Origin: Chloroflexota bacterium | GTDB taxonomy: Bacteria > Chloroflexota > Limnocylindria > Limnocylindrales > CSP1-4 | Assembly: GCA_005883615.1 (NCBI GenBank) | Contig: VBEC01000016.1 | Span: 62,001 to 126,000, forward strand | Direction: 5' to 3' | DNA length: 64,000 nt | Shown: positions 25,086 through 53,558 of the stretch, in pieces | Numbering within the stretch: the first letter of the stretch is position 1 | Layout of the letters: each line of letters starts with the position of its first letter | Notes under the pieces: generated by a model | What the model saw: the letters and a program-made list of their open reading frames with translations, nothing else | What the model was told of the DNA's origin: nothing | Database searches by the model: none | Made by a program: the position numbers and the translations under genes

Positions 25086-25102
25086 GTGGCTCGGTGTGGA
25101 AA

Positions 25103-25178
25103 TGGTGGAGATGAGGGGACTCGAACCCCTGACCCCCGCGATGCGAACGCGGTGCTCTTCCAGCTGAGCTACATCCCC
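25103..25178 (-). tRNA. tRNA-Ala (anticodon CGC)
   Basis: The minus-strand 76-mer folds as a cloverleaf. Acceptor GGGGATG pairs with CATCTCC, with the alanine-defining G3-U70. The D arm has GCTCAGCTGG, the anticodon stem is CCGCG/CGCGG with loop TTCGCAT (anticodon CGC), and the T arm is GGTTCGAGTCC. CCA is encoded at 25105-25103. It is the second alanine isoacceptor in the window, differing mainly in acceptor and anticodon stems. Confidence 0.97.
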
Positions 25179-25503
25179 ACCGGAGACGGCCAACGGGCCC
25201 GGTTCGGACGGCGCCGAGTGTAGCACGAGGGTCCTCGGCCTCCGCCTCGGGGGGATGCCGGCGGCCGTGTCCCGGCATGTAGCAATGGGGGAGCTGTTAT
25301 CCGGTGATCGCGGCCTGGTGCGCGGTCTTTCGTCCCGATTCGTGCTTGCGCCGGCGCGGTTTGCGGGTTGAGGCCAGAGCCTTTTCTGGTTAGTAGTTCT
25401 CCGGTTGCTGGGCGGCAGGAAAGGCGTGCGGCGCCCTCCGCGGGACTAGCCCGGACGACCATATAGACCTTGACCAATCGAACAAATGTTCTATCATCGA
25501 CAG
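25179..25503. other. Intergenic region between tRNA-Ala(CGC) and imuA
   Basis: 325 bases between divergent units. It holds the SOS promoter of imuA at its right end (annotated separately) and a 7-bp inverted repeat around 25255-25279 (ATGCCGG ... CCGGCAT). No tRNA promoter can be named with confidence. No gene is seen. Confidence 0.5.
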
Positions 25504-25504
25504 A
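25470..25504 (+). promoter_or_regulatory. SOS promoter of imuA: LexA box in the spacer, leaderless start
   Basis: TTGACC (25470-25475), a 16-base spacer and TATCAT (25492-25497) form the promoter. The spacer ends with GAACAAATGTTC (25480-25491), a perfect match to the actinobacterial/Gram-positive LexA consensus GAAC-N4-GTTC, so bound LexA would block polymerase directly. The expected start point falls on ATG 25504. The same box-to-minus-10 geometry occurs before dnaE2 at 30928. Confidence 0.85.
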
Positions 25505-26604
25505 TGGCGGATGCCTCGCCCGACGTCGCAACTGCGCTGGCTTTCCTCCGGGAGCGCTGGGGTGGGGCAGCTCCGGTCATCGGAGCCCTGGCGAGGGCAC
25601 CCGAGCCATCACTCCTGCCCGACGAGCAGAGCACGGAACGCCTGGCCGACGAGGCTCACGTCGTTCGAACCGGCTTTCCGGCACTCGACGCGATCCTCGG
25701 ACCAGGGGGCGTACCACGGCAGGCGAGCCTGGCGGTCCTCGGGGAGCATTCGAGCGGCAAGACCACCCTCGCCCTCCGTCTTGCTGCGGAGGCACAGGCT
25801 GCCGGCGGGATCGTTGCCTATCTCGATCTGGCGCGCAGCCTGGATCCCGTCGAAGCCGTTGCGCGAGGGGTGCAGCTCGAGTGGCTGGTCGTCCTCACGC
25901 CGACCGACCTGGATGAAGGGCTGGCGATGGCCGGCGCGCTCCTTCAAGCCCGGGCGGTGGACCTCCTCCTGATCGATCTGCCGGTAGGGCGCGGAGCCTC
26001 TGGCGGGCCTCGAAAGAGGGACCGACCTGGCATTCCCGAACGGCTCCATCGCCTGACGGCCCTCGCCCGACGGGCTGGCACGCTACTGGTAGTCCTCGAG
26101 CCTCCCGGTTTGCCGTCCGCAACGGCGGAGGCGCTGGCAGAGGCTGCCGGGCTCCGCCTCGAGCTCGCCCGGCGATCGTGGATCCGCCTGGGCCGGGACG
26201 TGATCGGGCAACGGACGGAGGTGGTGGTCGCTCGCAACCGTTTTGGCCCGCCGGGGCGGCGGACTGAGCTGCGAATCCTCTACGCGGAAGGCGGCGATCG
26301 GGACGCCTGTCTCGCTCGCGGCGATCTCCTCCGCGAGATTCCCGCCCCCGGCCGGATCGACGCCCCCGGTAACCACTCCATCGAGAAGTTCAAAGACCAT
26401 GAGACTCCTCCACCTCTTCTGGCCCCATCTGCCCCTCCGTCTCGCCCGGTCGCACTGCGGGTCCTCGCGGTTCCCGAGCGGTCCGGTCATCCTGGGCGGC
26501 CAGCCCTGGACGGCTGGCTCGGTGCTCGACGCCAGCCCGGAGGCCGAGGCGCTCGGCGTCCGGCGCGGGATGGCGCTCGGCAGCGCACATCGGCTGGCGC
26601 CTGA
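25504..26604 (+). CDS. imuA: ImuA-like RecA-fold mutasome protein
   Basis: 366 residues from ATG 25504. The in-frame ATG at 25486 lies inside the LexA box and upstream of the predicted transcript start. The RecA-like fold has TGFPALDAILGPGGVPRQ, Walker A LGEHSSGKTTLAL, and Walker B-like AVDLLLIDLP, followed by WIRLGRDVIGQRTEVVVARN. ImuA interacts with ImuB and DnaE2 in damage-induced translesion synthesis. From about residue 300 the frame overlaps the start of imuB by 206 bases, and the tail becomes Pro/Arg-rich and family-unlike, so the conserved part ends near 26370. Whether the tail is made as read is worth checking. Confidence 0.88.
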   Translation: MADASPDVATALAFLRERWGGAAPVIGALARAPEPSLLPDEQSTERLADEAHVVRTGFPALDAILGPGGVPRQASLAVLGEHSSGKTTLALRLAAEAQAAGGIVAYLDLARSLDPVEAVARGVQLEWLVVLTPTDLDEGLAMAGALLQARAVDLLLIDLPVGRGASGGPRKRDRPGIPERLHRLTALARRAGTLLVVLEPPGLPSATAEALAEAAGLRLELARRSWIRLGRDVIGQRTEVVVARNRFGPPGRRTELRILYAEGGDRDACLARGDLLREIPAPGRIDAPGNHSIEKFKDHETPPPLLAPSAPPSRPVALRVLAVPERSGHPGRPALDGWLGARRQPGGRGARRPARDGARQRTSAGA

Positions 26605-27679
26605 GGCAGCCTTTCTCGATCACCATCCGGCAGCCGATGAGGCGGCCGTGGAAGCCGCCCTGGAGCGACTGGCGAGCTTCAGCCCCGGAGTCGCCGGGAC
26701 CACCGACGTCGACGATGCCGCCTTCGGGCGCCTGGAGGTCCAGGTCGACGGCCTCGAGCGTCTGTGGGGACTGGAGCCGGTCCTCGTGGAGCGGATGGCG
26801 GCTGCTCTGGCGGATGTCCTGCCGGGTTCGCCTCGAGGGGGCATTGCAGGGACGCGCTTCGCGGCAATGATCGCGGCGACCGTGCGATCACCCGACACCC
26901 CGGGCCGTCGCCTCGTCGTGGTGTCCTCGGGTAGAGAAGCGGCCTTTCTTGCGCCGCTCCCGGCAGCCCTGCTGACCACCGATCCGGACGTTCGCGCTCG
27001 CCTCGCCCGGTTCGGTTTGCGGGATGTGGCTGCCATCGCCGGGTTGCCGCGGACCGCGCTGGTGGCGCGCTTTGGAATGGAGGGGGAGCGCCTTCATGCC
27101 CGGGCCCGCGGCGAGGAGACCGACCCGTTCCGACCACGTCGTACGCCCGAGCGCATGGCGCTCGCCCTACCCATCGACCCGCCCGTGGATGCTCTCGAGC
27201 CGCTGCGTTTCGTCCTCCACCGCCTGGCGGCAGCCCTGGGCGATCAGCTCCTGGCCCGTGGAGCGGCAACGGCCCGAGCGCACCTCCGCCTGGAGCTCGA
27301 TCGTGCGTTCGCACCCGAGGACACCCCACCAGAGCAGGTCATCGCGCAGCGTCTGCCCGAGCCGACGGCGGAAGCCGAGGCGATCGAACGGCTGCTCTTC
27401 GCCCGCCTCGAGCGGACGCCGCCGCCCGCGCCGGTCGCCCGCCTGGAACTGGAGCTGGCCGAAGTCGAGCCGGCAGCCGGGCAGCAGCTCACGCTATTCG
27501 TGCCCCAGGCGGCCCGACTGACCCGGCTGGGATGGCAGCTCGCCCGCCTGGCATTGACGTTCGGAGAGGACCGGATCCGGACGGTCGAGCTCACGGACCC
27601 GGAGATGCCGCTGCCGGAACGGCGCTGGCACTGGCGGCCGGTCGCGTCCGGGGCGATCGAAGAAGGGAATGGCGGGTAA
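26399..27679 (+). CDS. imuB: ImuB, Y-family polymerase-like mutasome adaptor
   Basis: 426 residues from ATG 26399. The Y-family fold is recognisable (MRLLHLFWPHLPLRLA..., the thumb helix FGLRDVAAIAGLPRTALVARFGMEGERLHARARG, and a little-finger domain), but the acidic active-site residues of DinB (IDMDAFYA, DE) are missing at the N-terminus. This is as known for ImuB, which is a non-catalytic bridge between the beta clamp and DnaE2. QLTLF at residues 363-367 is a good beta-clamp-binding motif. It overlaps imuA by 206 bases, and its TAA overlaps the next ATG (TAATG). It would be expressed from the LexA-controlled imuA promoter. Confidence 0.93.
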   Translation: MRLLHLFWPHLPLRLARSHCGSSRFPSGPVILGGQPWTAGSVLDASPEAEALGVRRGMALGSAHRLAPEAAFLDHHPAADEAAVEAALERLASFSPGVAGTTDVDDAAFGRLEVQVDGLERLWGLEPVLVERMAAALADVLPGSPRGGIAGTRFAAMIAATVRSPDTPGRRLVVVSSGREAAFLAPLPAALLTTDPDVRARLARFGLRDVAAIAGLPRTALVARFGMEGERLHARARGEETDPFRPRRTPERMALALPIDPPVDALEPLRFVLHRLAAALGDQLLARGAATARAHLRLELDRAFAPEDTPPEQVIAQRLPEPTAEAEAIERLLFARLERTPPPAPVARLELELAEVEPAAGQQLTLFVPQAARLTRLGWQLARLALTFGEDRIRTVELTDPEMPLPERRWHWRPVASGAIEEGNGG

Positions 27680-27927
27680 TGACACGCCTGCTGCGGGAGC
27701 ATCCCGTCATCGATCCCGAACTCGATTCGAACGGTCGCCTCGTTGCCATTCGCTGGGCTGGACGTCGCGAGCCGGTGGAGGTCTGCAACCAGTGGCGCGT
27801 CGAGGAGGGTTGGTGGCGAGAGCCGATCGCCCGCGACTACTTCAAGGTCGTCGGGCCGCACTGGCTGGCCCTCGTCTATCTCGACAGGGTTGACGGCAGT
27901 TGGCACCTGGAGCGCCTCTACGACTAA
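27679..27927 (+). CDS. DUF6504 family mutasome-associated small protein
   Basis: 82 residues; its ATG overlaps the imuB stop (TAATG), so translation is coupled. The sequence GRLVAIRWAGRREPVEVCNQ, then WWREPIARDYFKVVG, LALVYLDRVDGSWHLERLYD, matches what I recall of DUF6504, which is encoded between imuB and dnaE2 in many Actinobacteria. The C-terminal 'WHLERLYD' strand is the most typical part. It is a small beta-rich cytosolic protein, and its role in mutagenesis is unknown. Here dnaE2 is not adjacent but lies 3 kb further on. Confidence 0.8.
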   Translation: MTRLLREHPVIDPELDSNGRLVAIRWAGRREPVEVCNQWRVEEGWWREPIARDYFKVVGPHWLALVYLDRVDGSWHLERLYD

Positions 27928-30927: not shown

Positions 30928-30945
30928 GAACTTATGTTCTATTAT
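30928..30945 (+). promoter_or_regulatory. LexA box and -10 of dnaE2
   Basis: GAACTTATGTTC (30928-30939) is a perfect GAAC-N4-GTTC LexA site and is directly followed by TATTAT (30940-30945), a good -10. This is the same arrangement as at imuA. The expected transcript start is near 30952, only 10-13 bases before the GTG/ATG starts of dnaE2, so the leader is very short. The -35 region is poor. The box lies about 100 bases from the divergent GH18 start and might influence that gene too. Confidence 0.85.
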
Positions 30946-30964
30946 CTGTACGTCCGAGCCCGTG

Positions 30965-33900
30965 ATGGGAACCCGAACATCGACGATGCCGGCAGCCTAC
31001 GCCGAGCTCCACTGCCATAGCCACTTCTCGTTCCTGGACGGGGCCTCCTCAGCAGACGAGCTGGTCGAACGAGCGGTCGAGCTCGGCCTGTCCGGCCTCG
31101 CCATCACGGACCACCAGGGCCTGTACGGAGCTGTTCGTTTCATCTCAGCGGCGCAAGAGGCCGGTCTCCATCCTGTGATCGGTCTGGAGATCGAGCTGCT
31201 GGATGCAGCCGAACCAGACCCGTCCGGGCTGGTCACCCCGAAACGGCGGCGAGTTCGCCGCTTTGGCCTCCCCGAGCCCGACCGCGAGGCACCTCATGAA
31301 GGATCGCCTCGTCGCCCGCGAGCCGAGCGCGCCCGTCTCCCTGGCCACCGGGAGGCCATCCGGGAAGACCTGCGTGGCATCGGCATCGGCCAGCGCGGTC
31401 CGCATCTGGTCCTCATGGCGCGCGATGCCAGTGGCTATCGGAGCCTGTGCCGTCTCGTCTCGCGCGCGAACCTGGCCGGGACAAAGGGCGTGCCAAGGTT
31501 CAGCCACGCGCTCCTGCGCGAGCACAACGAGGGTGTCGTCGCCCTCTCGGGCTGCCGCGACGGCGAGATCGCCCGACGTCTCAGGGCTGGAGATCGTGAG
31601 GGTGCTCGGATGGTAGCCGAGGGATTCGCCGCGTTGTTCGGGCGGGCGGACGCACGCGCACAAGGAGGGCCCCGGGGGATGGCCTCGGCCGGTTTCTTCC
31701 TCGAGCTCGAACACCATCTCCTGCCGGATGACGACTGGCTGGTCGCCGAAACAGCGCGCCTGGCCGAGGAGGTGGGTCTTCCTGTCGTCGTCACCAACGA
31801 CGTCCATTACGCGCACCGGGCCGGGCGGGAGCTGCATGACGTCGTCACGGCGATCCGCCACGGCCGAACCCTCGACGGGCTGGCCGATCTGCGGGATCCG
31901 TCCGGCGAGCTGTACCTCAAGTCGGCCGAGGAGCTGGCGGCTCTGCCGCCCGGCGACGAGGCCACGATGTCAGGCGATCCGCGAACCGCCCGAGCGTGGG
32001 CGGAAGGACTGCGGACGGCCGGTGAGCTGGCGGCTGAATGCTCGGTCGAGCTCGGCTTCGAGCAGTACCGCTTCCCCGGTTTCGCGGTTCCCGACGGCGA
32101 CACGCCATTGTCATACCTGGAGGGTCTGTGCCACGACGGCGCTCGCCGCCGCTACCACCCGATGACCTCGGCAGTTGTCCGGCAGCTGGCCCACGAGCTG
32201 TCCGTCATCGAGAAGACCGGCCTGGCCGAGTTCTTCCTCATTTGCTGGGACCTGATGCGCTTCGCGAAGCAACGTGGCATCCCGGCTCAGGGCCGGGGCA
32301 GCGCGGCCGACTCGATCGTGGCGTATGTACTCGGCATCACACGTGTCGATCCCATCCGCCACAACCTGCTCTTCGAACGGTTCATCAACGAGGGCCGGAC
32401 GGCCTATCCGGATGTTGACATCGACTTCTCGGCGGCGCGACGTGAGGAGGTCATCCAGTACGTCTACGACAAATATGGCGAGGAGCACACCGGGATGGTC
32501 TGCAACCTCGTCACGTACCGGGCGCGGTCGGCGGTTCGCGAGGTCGGCTATGCGCTGGGCTTTCCGCGGCCGCTGGTGGACCGGGTGGCCAAGGCGCTCG
32601 AGACGTACGACTCGGTGATGGTCCGGCGCGACCTCGAGGCAGAAGGCGGGTTCGGGCAGTTCTTCGCACATCCCGGCGAACTCGGACCCCAGGGGCCGGA
32701 AGCCGTGGCCGGAGCGGCCGCCGAGGCTGGGGGGCGCGGCCTGGTCGATGAGATGGGCCGGCTCAATCATGGCCGTGGGGGACGGGAGAGGTCCCCAACC
32801 GACGGAAGCCAGAACGAAGCCCAGGCCGATTCCCGACGGTCAGTCAAGGGGGGACTGATATCTGGGGACTCTCCCGGATCCGGTGCCGAACATATCCCGG
32901 TCCGAACGGCGAGCGGCACAAACGGAGTCAGCGGACGCGATCATCTTCCGATTACCAGTCTTCCCCGGACTGGCCGTCAGGATCCGGGCTCACCGGGTCC
33001 AGTCGACCGCCTCGCCCCGGTGACCACGATCCGGGCGGGCCGATGGGACGACGAGGGCGGCCCGGGTGACTCGCCGGCCAGTGTCCACTGGCTTCGAAGC
33101 GGGCACGGCACCGGCTACCGGCCGGACGGCAACCGGACGGACTTGCCCGGCCTGGTTGGCGGCCGCCGGATCGACCCCGAATCGGGCGTTCTCATGCCGC
33201 CCGAGCGCCGCCACGACCCCGAGCATCCGGAGACGGACAGCCTCGGCAGGCCGTTCCACCGGGGGCCGGTTCGGGACCTTGTCGCTGCCGCCGAACCCTC
33301 CGAGGGCCGAGGCGACGCTCCTCCGAGTCATCGGCCCGAGGATTCGACGGTCGGTCTCTCTGACTGGGACCGCTGGCTGGAGATGTGCGCGCGGCTCGAC
33401 GGCTTCCCGCGTCATCTGTCGATCCATTCGGGCGGCATGCTCGTGACCGCGGCGCCCCTGATCGACATCGCCCCACTCGAGCGGGCGACCATGCCCAAGC
33501 GCGTCGTGGTCCAGTTCGACAAGCGCGACGTCGAGACGCTCAAGCTGATCAAGCTCGACCTGCTGGGCCTGGGAATGCTGGCCGCGATGGACGAGGCGCT
33601 CCAGCTGATCGAGCACGACTGCGCGGTCTGCCTGGACCTCGACCGTCTGCCCGAGGAGATTCCCGAGGTCTTCGAAATGCTCCAGGCAGCCGACACCGTG
33701 GGCGTCTTCCAGGTCGAGAGCCGTGCCCAGATGCAGACACTCCCGAAGAGCCGCCCGGCCAGCCTGGACGACCTGGTCGTGGAGGTCGCGATCATCCGGC
33801 CCGGGCCGATCCAGGGCAACGCCGTCCACCCGTACCTGCGCCGGAAGCAGGGGCTCGAGCCGGTGATCTATCTGCATCCGTCCCTCGAGCCGGTCCTGCG

Positions 33901-35320
33901 CGACACGCTCGGGGTGATCCTCTACCAGGAGCAGGTCATGCGCATTGCCATCGAGGTGGGTGGCTTCTCACCAGCCGAGTCCGACGGCTTCCGTCGGGCG
34001 ATGGGCACGTGGCGGTCGACGCGCGAGATGGAGAAGCTGCACCGGCAGTTCGTCGAGGGCTGCCTCCGCCAGCCGGGCATGACCGAGGAGATGGCCGAGG
34101 AGCTGTTCCGGCAGGTCGCCGCCTTCGCTAGTTTTGGATTTGCCAAGAGCCACGCGGCGGCGTTCGCCCGCACCGCCTACGAGTCCGCCTTCCTGAAGCT
34201 GTTCTATCCCGCCCAGCTCCTGGCCGGCCTCATCAATGCCCAGCCGATGGGCTTCTACCCGGTCGAGGTGCTCGCCAACGACACCAAGCGCCACGGGGTC
34301 GCCGTGCTGCCGGTCGACATCAACGCATCGAGCTACAAGACGACCACCGAATGGGTGGGCCGGCCGGGTTGGGCACTCGGGCAGGGCGACCATGGGCCGG
34401 GAGAGCCCATGCCGGAGAACGCCTCCATCGGGGCCCGACCCATGCCGGTGCGTTCTGCCGCCTGCGTGATCCCATCGTCCAAAGCGCGAGAGCGATGGGC
34501 GGCCGAGAGCGCGGTCGGCTATGGCGTGCGGCTCGGGCTCGGGCTCGTCAAGGGGATCGGCGAGGAGCAGGCCGAGCGGCTGGACGCGGAGCTGGCACGA
34601 GGCCCGTACGAAACGTTGAGCGAAGTGGTGGAGCGGACGGGCCTGTCGGAGGAGGTAGTCGAGCGGTTGATCCGGGCAGGAGCGCTCGACTCGCTTGGCC
34701 GCCCGCGGCGCGAGCTGCTCTGGCAGCTTCGCGAGGTGGCCGGTGCGACGAAAGGCCGCGTCGATGGTCGAGCGACTGGCGGAGCCCGGGCGGGCCGGCG
34801 GGCGGCGGGTCGCCCCGCGGATCTCCGCCTGCCGGCGACACCGGTCCCCCAGCTGCCGGCGATCACCGAAACCGAGCGGTTGGGCGATGCCTATGCGGTG
34901 GTCGGGATGGACGCTCGGCGTCAGGTGGTCGGGCTCTTCCGGGAGGCGCTGGTCAAGCTCGGCGCCCAGCCGAGCTCGGCGCTCGCGGTACGGCCACCGG
35001 GCCGGATCCGGCTGGGCGGGCTGGTGGTGACGCGCCAGCATCCGATGACCGCGCGCGGAACGGTCTTCCTGGCGCTCGAGGACGAAACCGGAATGGTCAA
35101 CGTCACGCTCTGGCCGGATCGCTGGATGCGCTTCAGGGGAGTGGTTCGGCGCCACGCCCTGTTGCTGGTCGATGGGCAGCTGCAGCGCGAGGGCAACGTG
35201 GTCAACGTCGTCGCGGACGACGTGCGGTCACTCGTCGAAGAGGCTCGCCGCGTCGGAGGCCCAGAGGGTGCGCCCGGCGTTCGCCACATGGGTCATGCCG
35301 GCATGCGCCGGCTCGGTTGA
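30965..35320 (+). CDS. dnaE2: Error-prone DNA polymerase III alpha subunit DnaE2 (ImuC) with inserts
   Basis: About 1451 residues, against roughly 1050-1100 for typical DnaE2. Starts at GTG 30962, ATG 30965 or ATG 30986 (MPAAYAEL) are all possible. The PHP domain opens AELHCHSHFSFLDGASS. The polymerase motifs include GRGSAADSIVAYVLGITRVDP, the catalytic YPDVDIDFS, and KLDLLGLGMLAAMDEA, then HhH and an OB domain (IRLGGLVVTRQHPMTARGTVF). Three polar, Pro/Gly/Arg-rich inserts interrupt it: about 31200-31400, 32645-33355 (~237 residues) and 34345-34515. The conserved cores on both sides remain in frame. It replicates past lesions together with ImuA/ImuB and is LexA-controlled. Confidence 0.95.
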   Translation: MGTRTSTMPAAYAELHCHSHFSFLDGASSADELVERAVELGLSGLAITDHQGLYGAVRFISAAQEAGLHPVIGLEIELLDAAEPDPSGLVTPKRRRVRRFGLPEPDREAPHEGSPRRPRAERARLPGHREAIREDLRGIGIGQRGPHLVLMARDASGYRSLCRLVSRANLAGTKGVPRFSHALLREHNEGVVALSGCRDGEIARRLRAGDREGARMVAEGFAALFGRADARAQGGPRGMASAGFFLELEHHLLPDDDWLVAETARLAEEVGLPVVVTNDVHYAHRAGRELHDVVTAIRHGRTLDGLADLRDPSGELYLKSAEELAALPPGDEATMSGDPRTARAWAEGLRTAGELAAECSVELGFEQYRFPGFAVPDGDTPLSYLEGLCHDGARRRYHPMTSAVVRQLAHELSVIEKTGLAEFFLICWDLMRFAKQRGIPAQGRGSAADSIVAYVLGITRVDPIRHNLLFERFINEGRTAYPDVDIDFSAARREEVIQYVYDKYGEEHTGMVCNLVTYRARSAVREVGYALGFPRPLVDRVAKALETYDSVMVRRDLEAEGGFGQFFAHPGELGPQGPEAVAGAAAEAGGRGLVDEMGRLNHGRGGRERSPTDGSQNEAQADSRRSVKGGLISGDSPGSGAEHIPVRTASGTNGVSGRDHLPITSLPRTGRQDPGSPGPVDRLAPVTTIRAGRWDDEGGPGDSPASVHWLRSGHGTGYRPDGNRTDLPGLVGGRRIDPESGVLMPPERRHDPEHPETDSLGRPFHRGPVRDLVAAAEPSEGRGDAPPSHRPEDSTVGLSDWDRWLEMCARLDGFPRHLSIHSGGMLVTAAPLIDIAPLERATMPKRVVVQFDKRDVETLKLIKLDLLGLGMLAAMDEALQLIEHDCAVCLDLDRLPEEIPEVFEMLQAADTVGVFQVESRAQMQTLPKSRPASLDDLVVEVAIIRPGPIQGNAVHPYLRRKQGLEPVIYLHPSLEPVLRDTLGVILYQEQVMRIAIEVGGFSPAESDGFRRAMGTWRSTREMEKLHRQFVEGCLRQPGMTEEMAEELFRQVAAFASFGFAKSHAAAFARTAYESAFLKLFYPAQLLAGLINAQPMGFYPVEVLANDTKRHGVAVLPVDINASSYKTTTEWVGRPGWALGQGDHGPGEPMPENASIGARPMPVRSAACVIPSSKARERWAAESAVGYGVRLGLGLVKGIGEEQAERLDAELARGPYETLSEVVERTGLSEEVVERLIRAGALDSLGRPRRELLWQLREVAGATKGRVDGRATGGARAGRRAAGRPADLRLPATPVPQLPAITETERLGDAYAVVGMDARRQVVGLFREALVKLGAQPSSALAVRPPGRIRLGGLVVTRQHPMTARGTVFLALEDETGMVNVTLWPDRWMRFRGVVRRHALLLVDGQLQREGNVVNVVADDVRSLVEEARRVGGPEGAPGVRHMGHAGMRRLG

Positions 35321-41173: not shown

Positions 41174-42205
41174 CTGTCCGCACGTCCGGTCCTTGCGCTC
41201 GATCTGGGTGGTACACAGATTCGGGCCGCCGTGGTTCTGCCCGACGGCGGACGGGTCGCCAGGGTGGCAACGGAGACCCCCAAGGCTCAGGGTCCTGAGG
41301 CGGTCGTTCGCGCCTGCCTCGAGTCGCTGCGCATGTCGCGCGCTCGGGCCCCGCGCCAGCTCGCAGACGGAGCGGTGGGCATCGGCGTATCGAGCCCGGG
41401 CCCCATCGACCCCTGGCGCGGCATCATCATCGAGCCGCCCAACCTGGGGCCAGAGTTTCACGACATCGAGATTGCCGCTCCACTCGAGGCGGCGCTGGGC
41501 CTGCCGGTCTACCTCGAGCGGGACACCAACGTCGCCGCACTCGCCGAGGAGGCCTTCGGGGCGGCCAGGGACTGCCCCGACTTCCTGTACATGACCGTGT
41601 CGACGGGCATCGGCGGGGCGATCGTTTCCGAGGGCCGGATCCTGTACGGACCGGACGCCACTGCCGGCGAGCTCGGGCACGTGCCGGTCAATCTGGACGG
41701 TCCCGTGTGCGGCTGCGGAGGCATCGCACATCTCGAGGCGTATGCGGCAGGGGCCGGCCTGTCTCGCTTCGCACGCGAGGCCGTGGCCGCCGGCACGAGC
41801 TCCTTCCTGTCGCAGCGCGCAACCCGGGACGGGCTTGACGCACTGGGAGCGCAGGACGTGGCCGAGGGCGAGGACGCGGGAGACGCGGTTTGCGCTGCCC
41901 TCATGGCTCAGGCCCGCCATGCGTTCTCGGTTGCCTGTGCCGGCTACGTCAACATCTTCAACCCGAGCCGCATCGTGGTCGGCGGCACGATCGCAGAGAA
42001 GCAAGGCGATCGCCTGCTCGGTCCAGCGCGGGACTACGTGGCCCGATACGCCCTGAAGACCCCCCGTCGTCGGGTGGAGATCGTTCCGGCCGAGCTTGGC
42101 CCGGACGTTTCACTCGCTGGCGCATACCCATTGGTGACCGGTCGGCTCGGTGACGACCGATGGCGGCCAGGTCGCTCCGATGTCACGACCCTCGCGAGCG
42201 CCTGA
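41174..42205 (+). CDS. ROK-family sugar kinase (glucokinase-like), apparent CTG start
   Basis: 343 residues. The frame's first standard start is GTG 41231, but that would remove the phosphate-binding motif LALDLGGTQIRAAVV encoded just upstream in frame. Between an in-frame TGA (about 41130) and that motif no ATG, GTG or TTG exists. CTG 41174, with GAGG six bases before it, is the only sensible start. The ROK marks are DLGGT, VSTGIGGAIV, and the zinc site ELGHVPVNLDGPVCGCGGIAHLE, in which the usual GC before xE is AH. It precedes gap-pgk-eno, so glucose phosphorylation is plausible. Confidence 0.88.
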   Translation: MSARPVLALDLGGTQIRAAVVLPDGGRVARVATETPKAQGPEAVVRACLESLRMSRARAPRQLADGAVGIGVSSPGPIDPWRGIIIEPPNLGPEFHDIEIAAPLEAALGLPVYLERDTNVAALAEEAFGAARDCPDFLYMTVSTGIGGAIVSEGRILYGPDATAGELGHVPVNLDGPVCGCGGIAHLEAYAAGAGLSRFAREAVAAGTSSFLSQRATRDGLDALGAQDVAEGEDAGDAVCAALMAQARHAFSVACAGYVNIFNPSRIVVGGTIAEKQGDRLLGPARDYVARYALKTPRRRVEIVPAELGPDVSLAGAYPLVTGRLGDDRWRPGRSDVTTLASA

Positions 42206-52496: not shown

Positions 52497-53558
52497 TTGG
52501 CGCGTCGAATCCGCCCCGCGGGCCCGCTGGACTCCCGAGCGCAGGCGATCCTCCGGGCCGTCATCGAGGAATACGTCACCACCGCCGTGCCGGTCGGCTC
52601 GCAGGCGCTTGTTGCCCGTTACGCGCTGTCCGTCAGCAGCGCCACGGTGCGCGGGATCCTCGCTGACCTCGAGGCGGCCGGCTTGCTGACCCATCCCCAC
52701 ACGTCGGCCGGCCGTATTCCCACCGACGACGGCTACCGCTTCTATGTCGAGTCGATCGTCGAGGCGACCCCGCTCCCGCACGTCGAGCAGCTGATGATCC
52801 GCCATCAGTTCGGCCAGGTCGAGTTCGCCAACGAACACTGGTTCCGCCTGGCGGCGACGACCCTTGCATCGGTGACCGGGTCGGCGGGTCTCGCGACTCC
52901 TGCCAAGCCCCGTTCGGCCCGCATCCGACGGATCGACCTGGTCGCCATCCAGGAGCGGCTCGCCAGCCTCGTGCTGGTCCTCCGCGAGGGGACCATCAAG
53001 CAGGCCCTCCTGACCCTCGACGCGCCAACCGACCAGGAATCCTTGAGCGCCGTGGCGCGCCGGCTCAACGAAGCCTTCCTCGACCGAACGGCGAACGAGA
53101 TCGACGCCCGCGTGGAGCGCTTCGACCCGGACGATCCCGCGAACGTGCTCGTCCGCAAGATCGCCCAGCGGATCGGGCGAACGATGCGCGAATTCGACGA
53201 CGCGATGATCGCCGAACTGTTCAGCGACGGGCTCCTCAACGTCATGTCCGCGCCAGAATTCGCGCAGAGCGAGAAGCTGCGGCGCGTGTTCTCTGCGCTC
53301 GAGGATCGAGCCTATCTGGGCCGCCTGTTGGGCAGCGTTGCCGGTGGAGGCCGCGTGCAGGTCTTCATCGGTCACGAGAACCCGCCCGAGGACATGCGCG
53401 AGGTTTCGCTCGTCCTGGCCCCGTATGGACAAGCGGGTCGAGCCCTGGGCGTCGTGGGCGTCCTCGGCCCTACCCGCATGGCTTACCCGCACGCGATCGG
53501 CACGGTCCGGTTCGTGTCGGGACTGATGAATGAGCTGGTGGATCACCTTTATGCCTGA
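52497..53558 (+). CDS. hrcA: Heat-inducible transcription repressor HrcA
   Basis: 353 residues from TTG 52497, after GAAGAAGG. The N-terminal winged helix (about 12-75) has LDSRAQAILRAVIEEYVTTA, VPVGSQALVARYALSVSSAT and VRGILADLEAAGLLTHPHTSAGRIPTDDGYR, the family's best-conserved stretch. The GAF-like dimerisation domain ends VFIGHENPPEDMREVSLVLA. It is the repressor of the CIRCE site directly upstream. The next gene (grpE) overlaps its end. Confidence 0.97.
   Translation: MARRIRPAGPLDSRAQAILRAVIEEYVTTAVPVGSQALVARYALSVSSATVRGILADLEAAGLLTHPHTSAGRIPTDDGYRFYVESIVEATPLPHVEQLMIRHQFGQVEFANEHWFRLAATTLASVTGSAGLATPAKPRSARIRRIDLVAIQERLASLVLVLREGTIKQALLTLDAPTDQESLSAVARRLNEAFLDRTANEIDARVERFDPDDPANVLVRKIAQRIGRTMREFDDAMIAELFSDGLLNVMSAPEFAQSEKLRRVFSALEDRAYLGRLLGSVAGGGRVQVFIGHENPPEDMREVSLVLAPYGQAGRALGVVGVLGPTRMAYPHAIGTVRFVSGLMNELVDHLYA

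Follow-up and report, generated by a model that had tools for sequence, protein, structure and literature searches.

The closest described systems come from four publications. According to these, the imuA-imuB-dnaE2 cassette is persistently LexA regulated wherever it is present (PMC3323433), and the Deinococcus cassette lexA-imuY-imuB-C-dnaE2 includes a gene for a protein of 80 residues, placed between the Y polymerase gene and dnaE2 (PMC8072749). The latter paper mentions leaderless mRNAs once, in a reference title. The lexA gene of Mycobacterium tuberculosis is leaderless, with the translation start coinciding with the mapped transcript start, and its annotation was wrong (PMC2897130). Leaderless genes carry a TANNNT signal approximately 12 bp upstream of the start codon, and in the Chloroflexi they were reported in 4 of 12 genomes, with a mean of 4.7% (Zheng et al. 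2011, PMC3160421). The literature searched yielded no account of an imuA gene in Chloroflexota that is leaderless and carries a LexA box, and searches for leaderless genes combined with a LexA or SOS box, for leaderless genes combined with dnaE2, and for LexA-binding GAAC sequences in Chloroflexi returned no such imuA; none was found for LexA and a GAAC box in Dehalococcoides. The parts are known, namely, LexA-controlled imuA cassettes, the leaderless signal, and the leaderless mycobacterial lexA gene, and their combination is apparently undescribed. Its conservation across a whole class is the surprising part.

The window, a 64,000-nucleotide stretch of a Chloroflexota genome (G000), contains a mutagenesis operon followed by dnaE2. 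With a probability of about 0.88, the promoter in front of imuA is the SOS promoter of this operon, predicted to be controlled by LexA and to start its transcript at or next to the ATG at 25504. The features are as follows.

25470 to 25475, plus strand: -35 hexamer TTGACC of imuA
25480 to 25491, plus strand: LexA box GAACAAATGTTC in the -35/-10 spacer, abutting the -10 hexamer
25486 to 25488, plus strand: ATG inside the operator, rejected as a translation start by comparison across 91 loci
25492 to 25497, plus strand: -10 hexamer TATCAT of imuA
25504 to 25506, plus strand: imuA start codon ATG, aligned with the in-frame starts of relatives; its A is the predicted +1
25504 to 26604, plus strand: imuA, RecA-like protein of the mutagenesis cassette (PF00154 RecA, 99 bits)
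26399 to 27679, plus strand: imuB, Y-family polymerase homologue (PF00817, 47 bits over a cut-off of 23), start chosen by eye
27676 to 27927, plus strand: 83-amino-acid open reading frame (ORF) overlapping the imuB stop codon (ATGA)
30928 to 30939, plus strand: LexA box GAACTTATGTTC of dnaE2
30940 to 30945, plus strand: -10 hexamer TATTAT of dnaE2, abutting the box, from the sequence and the compound pattern described below
30986 to 35320, plus strand: dnaE2, probable start ATG at 30986 (NF004225 error-prone DNA polymerase, 1037 bits over a cut-off of 939)

The protein beginning at 25504 scores 33.4 bits against the NCBIfam ImuA model NF033429, which is below the curated cut-off of 150, and the name ImuA is taken from its context, the genes that follow encoding a Y-family polymerase homologue (PF00817) and an error-prone DnaE (NF004225). 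The locus has the arrangement of an ImuA-like cassette, in which the gene for a RecA-like ATPase precedes that for a Y-family polymerase homologue, with dnaE2 nearby. imuB appears to begin within imuA, in a different frame, so that its first 206 nt overlap the end of imuA (26399 to 26604). The 83-amino-acid ORF matched nothing in Pfam or NCBIfam, and its size and position, which are as in the Deinococcus cassette, suggest that it is possibly an ImuB-C; the operon comprises imuA, imuB, and probably this small third gene. ARAGORN also called a tRNA-Ser (cga) at 27364 to 27444, antisense inside imuB, which is probably a false call.

The genes 5' of imuA, encoding tRNA-Ala and an ABC transporter, lie on the opposite strand, which means that imuA must have a promoter of its own. 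The first-pass annotation had read TTGACC-N16-TATCAT with a perfect GAAC-N4-GTTC box against the -10 hexamer, and this reading is exact: the spacer occupies 25476 to 25491, the box forms its 3' part, and the -10 hexamer is followed by CGACAG (25498 to 25503) and the ATG, so that a polymerase site, a damage-repressor site, and a first codon are packed into approximately 35 letters. No other sigma-70-like site occurs in positions 25100 to 25600; this one has 10 of 12 matches, and shuffled sequences give 0.1 such sites. The box taken alone is weak evidence in the window and is not significant, with three GAACN4GTTC sequences seen against 1.00 expected and at least three in 9 of 100 shuffles. The third of these perfect boxes, at 52833, has no -10 hexamer beside it and appears to be inside a coding region.

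In the proposed mechanism, the near-consensus sigma-70 promoter would bear a LexA operator in its spacer. LexA is predicted to bind there, and since the operator sits directly against the -10 hexamer, a bound dimer would exclude RNA polymerase. RecA on damaged DNA would trigger the self-cleavage of LexA, and the freed promoter would be induced. Polymerase would then begin the transcript on the A of the ATG at 25504 or no more than about one nucleotide away, and the mRNA would be translated from its 5' end without a leader or a Shine-Dalgarno sequence.

The significance rests on the box fused to the -10 hexamer and not on the box alone. In the 3.06-Mb genome, the compound pattern GAACN4GTTCTATNAT occurs twice, at the imuA and dnaE2 genes of the window, and its reversed control does not occur; across the class, 108 of 177 genomes contain the compound pattern, compared with none of the 177 for the reversed control. 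When extended by N6-10 and ATG, the pattern matched 50 genomes in a sample of 400 from the phylum, with no control matches. An ImuA match was obtained in 169 of the 177 genomes of the class, the weaker matches (approximately 38% identity) looking like RecA itself. From a larger number of matches, 95 ImuA-like loci were examined (30 from the search and 65 fetched), with G046 and G103 left out as having no N-terminal match. A perfect GAACN4GTTC box was found at 93 of them (91 at the first pass and 2 more after a wider search), and the two loci without one are both at contig ends. The operator thus overlaps the imuA promoter and is kept in relatives, as expected of a LexA-regulon promoter. The 91 loci of the first pass, 81 of family f1 and 10 of f5 with f2, f3, and f4 hardly represented, were used for most of the following counts. 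The hexamer abutting the box is TANNNT in 70 of 91 promoters and GATNNT in most others. The -35 hexamer has at most two mismatches from TTGACA in 82 of 90 class promoters, whereas a control placed 40 nt upstream gave 13 of 89, and the spacer is mostly 16 (47 loci) or 17 nt (31 loci). All 93 boxed loci have an in-frame ATG or GTG 6 to 11 nt past the hexamer, whereas five equally wide windows further downstream gave 0, 1, 0, 0, and 9 of 91. A Shine-Dalgarno-like 4-mer precedes the start at 2 of 91 loci. At one locus of the class (L032, G030:C247), a single LexA box is shared by two divergent -10 hexamers, one for imuA and one for a different gene.

The spacing between the -10 hexamer and the start codon was compared with a census of leaderless genes in 852,794 bases of G000, in which a crude gene caller of our own gave 623 genes and 1,660 candidate ATG or GTG starts. 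TANNNT ended 6, 7, 8, and 9 nt before 37, 26, 15, and 10 candidate starts, respectively, while gap 5 had 2 and the remaining gaps approximately 4, and out-of-frame ATG or GTG codons gave a flat distribution with no peak. In G158, another genome surveyed, the counts at these gaps were 28, 15, 11, and 15. TANNNT at leaderless spacing was found for 88 of 623 genes in G000, compared with 12 to 23 in control windows, and for 69 of 302 in G158, compared with 7 to 13, which suggests that leaderless genes are commoner in the class than the 4 to 6% printed for a few Chloroflexi. G000 thus has a clear class of leaderless genes, and its commonest gap of 6 nt is that of imuA, whose -10 hexamer falls within the range of approximately 6 to 9 nt and which has no Shine-Dalgarno sequence. 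Such a sharp edge at gap 6 is what a +1 on the first base of the start codon would produce, and imuA sits on this edge. The placement of the transcript start on the ATG in the first-pass annotation is supported, the exact +1 being a prediction from the spacing. A -35 hexamer with at most two mismatches was present in only 6 of the 88 G000 candidates (gaps 6 to 9), against a random rate of 6.7%. Most leaderless candidates have no -35 hexamer, and imuA therefore has an unusually strong promoter of the leaderless type, which suits a tightly repressed gene.

The best surviving alternative keeps the same LexA-controlled promoter with a leader of 1 to 5 nt, the polymerase picking the purine at 25502 or 25503, in which case "leaderless" would be only an operational term. 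The zero-leader reading has against it that the 6-nt gap occurs at only 9 of 91 imuA loci, the others having gaps of 7 (5 loci), 8 (4), 9 (27), 10 (44), and 11 nt (2). Most relatives thus have gaps of 9 or 10 nt, from which leaders of approximately 3 to 5 nt follow if the distance to the transcript start is fixed, and G158 shows an enrichment at gap 9 as well. A recurring GTCC(G/C)ATG or GGGC(G/C)ATG is seen at imuA starts with gaps of 9 or 10 nt, which also speaks for a short leader, and at several f5 dnaE2 promoters. This sequence is not general among leaderless genes, since a loose form is present in 10 of 91 candidates in G000 (gaps 6 to 10) and 7 of 74 in G158. For the window itself, however, the peak of the G000 census falls exactly on 6 nt, and gap 5 is almost empty (37 versus 2); a short leader at this imuA is considered an unlikely, though serious, alternative. 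Since the relatives mostly have the longer gaps, "a leader of 0 to 5 nt" appears to be the fairer wording for the group, with the genus of the window at the zero end. In G159, G160, G162, and G176, the imuA start region is GACCGATGTGA, in which an AUG is directly followed by UGA and an overlapping in-frame GTG is taken as the start; this is possibly a minimal start-stop element.

A second alternative, considered very improbable, is an upstream promoter with a longer transcript and translation from the ATG at 25486. This ATG begins the longest ATG ORF of imuA, which is the sense in which it is "commonly called" here rather than as the call of any annotation pipeline, and an in-frame ATG likewise lies in the box of G023, the nearest relative (locus L107). 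However, no second promoter-like site is found between 25100 and 25600, and the upstream genes lie on the other strand. Across the 91 loci, the box contains no ATG in 47, an in-frame ATG lies between box and start in only 24, and an in-frame stop intervenes in 52. The gap lengths leave the frame unfixed, with remainders of 0, 1, and 2 after division by three at 36, 49, and 6 loci, respectively. Because the frame is unfixed, the ATG often absent, and in-frame stops frequent, the in-box ATG is best explained as a by-product of the palindrome (NATGTTC). The first-pass annotation was right to place 25486 inside the operator and to reject it, and the comparison indicates that the conserved ImuA protein begins at 25504. 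That the box and the -10 hexamer are a chance resemblance at a constitutive imuA can be dismissed, since the modest excess of the box alone in the window (3 against 1.0) is all that favors it, whereas the compound pattern had 108 genomes with real matches against zero control matches and the module stands at 93 of 95 imuA loci.

In the window, dnaE2 was rejected as an equally leaderless gene. Its in-frame candidate starts, GTG at 30962, ATG at 30965, and ATG at 30986, lie 16, 19, and 40 nt after the -10 hexamer, and the last scores best, so that dnaE2, unlike imuA, probably has a leader. In total, 85 dnaE2 loci (30 and 55) were examined, of which 77 have a perfect box; the start lies 4 to 12 nt past the hexamer in 29, and the leaders are longer in 48. 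The eight other loci also have no one-mismatch box followed by TA. These variable dnaE2 leaders and the Shine-Dalgarno leader kept by lexA in this genome stand in contrast to imuA and bear on a further idea, that the leaderless (or 3- to 5-nt) start of imuA is itself selected, with operator, -10 hexamer, and AUG forming one fixed module, retained at practically all imuA loci examined, and leaderless translation tying damage-induced mutagenesis to the state of the ribosome. This idea is speculative and more doubtful than a short leader at imuA; if it were true, the state of the ribosome under stress would be a second control on top of LexA.

The genome encodes one LexA of 216 amino acids (TIGR00498, 200 bits over a cut-off of 111), which has DNA-binding and protease domains and aligns along its full length with solved LexA structures. 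The lexA promoter consists of TTGACA, the box GAACGTCTGTTC, with the same half-sites as the imuA box, and TATCAT two bases further from the box; unlike imuA, lexA has a leader with AGGAGG. A radical SAM gene on the minus strand of G000 (contig C27, box at 41812) has a box, TATTCT, 7 nt, and GTG. It is related to the Rv2578c family (spore-photoproduct-lyase-like), scoring 285 bits against the family model, below the cut-off of 430. The module of LexA box, -10 hexamer, and start 6 to 10 nt away is found at this gene not only in the genus but also in a second family of the class and beyond the class (L027, L342, L343, and L370 to L376), which points to a likely SOS gene. Rv2578c is named among the LexA targets in mycobacteria; a literature search for Rv2578c and LexA found no paper. 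In family f4 (L334 to L339, L345, L348, and L351), TTGACA, a box, and TATNAT are closely followed by a second box-like sequence and then by short ORFs of approximately 70 to 240 amino acids (crude calls), several with a PPR(V/A)YSP motif, which gave no match to the five SOS proteins compared.

In this large and little-studied group of Chloroflexota, the conserved SOS mutagenesis operon is probably translated without a leader, and a likely gene-start call (25486) is corrected to 25504. The layout also gives a search rule for further SOS genes in the group, namely, GAACN4GTTC, TANNNT, 6 to 11 nt, and ATG or GTG.

Compared with the literature cited above, the locus resembles the cassette of PMC3323433 in its genes, in the logic of the cassette, and in having a LexA box at the promoter; it differs in that lexA is located elsewhere, that dnaE2 has a boxed promoter of its own approximately 3 kb downstream, and that imuA is predicted to be leaderless or nearly so. 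The Deinococcus cassette (PMC8072749) is likewise an SOS mutagenesis cassette with a small protein, but it is without imuA and has lexA within the operon. Like the leaderless genes of Zheng et al. (PMC3160421), imuA has the TANNNT signal at the expected spacing, and the crude leaderless excess of approximately 12% in G000 and 20% in G158, in a high-GC class, differs from the Chloroflexi mean of 4.7% reported there. A parallel to the start itself is M. tuberculosis lexA (PMC2897130), also a gene of the SOS circuit with its start codon at the transcript start (predicted here) and a misplaced annotated or ORF start; that case is experimental, from another phylum, and concerns lexA rather than imuA, whereas the lexA gene here has a leader and a Shine-Dalgarno sequence.
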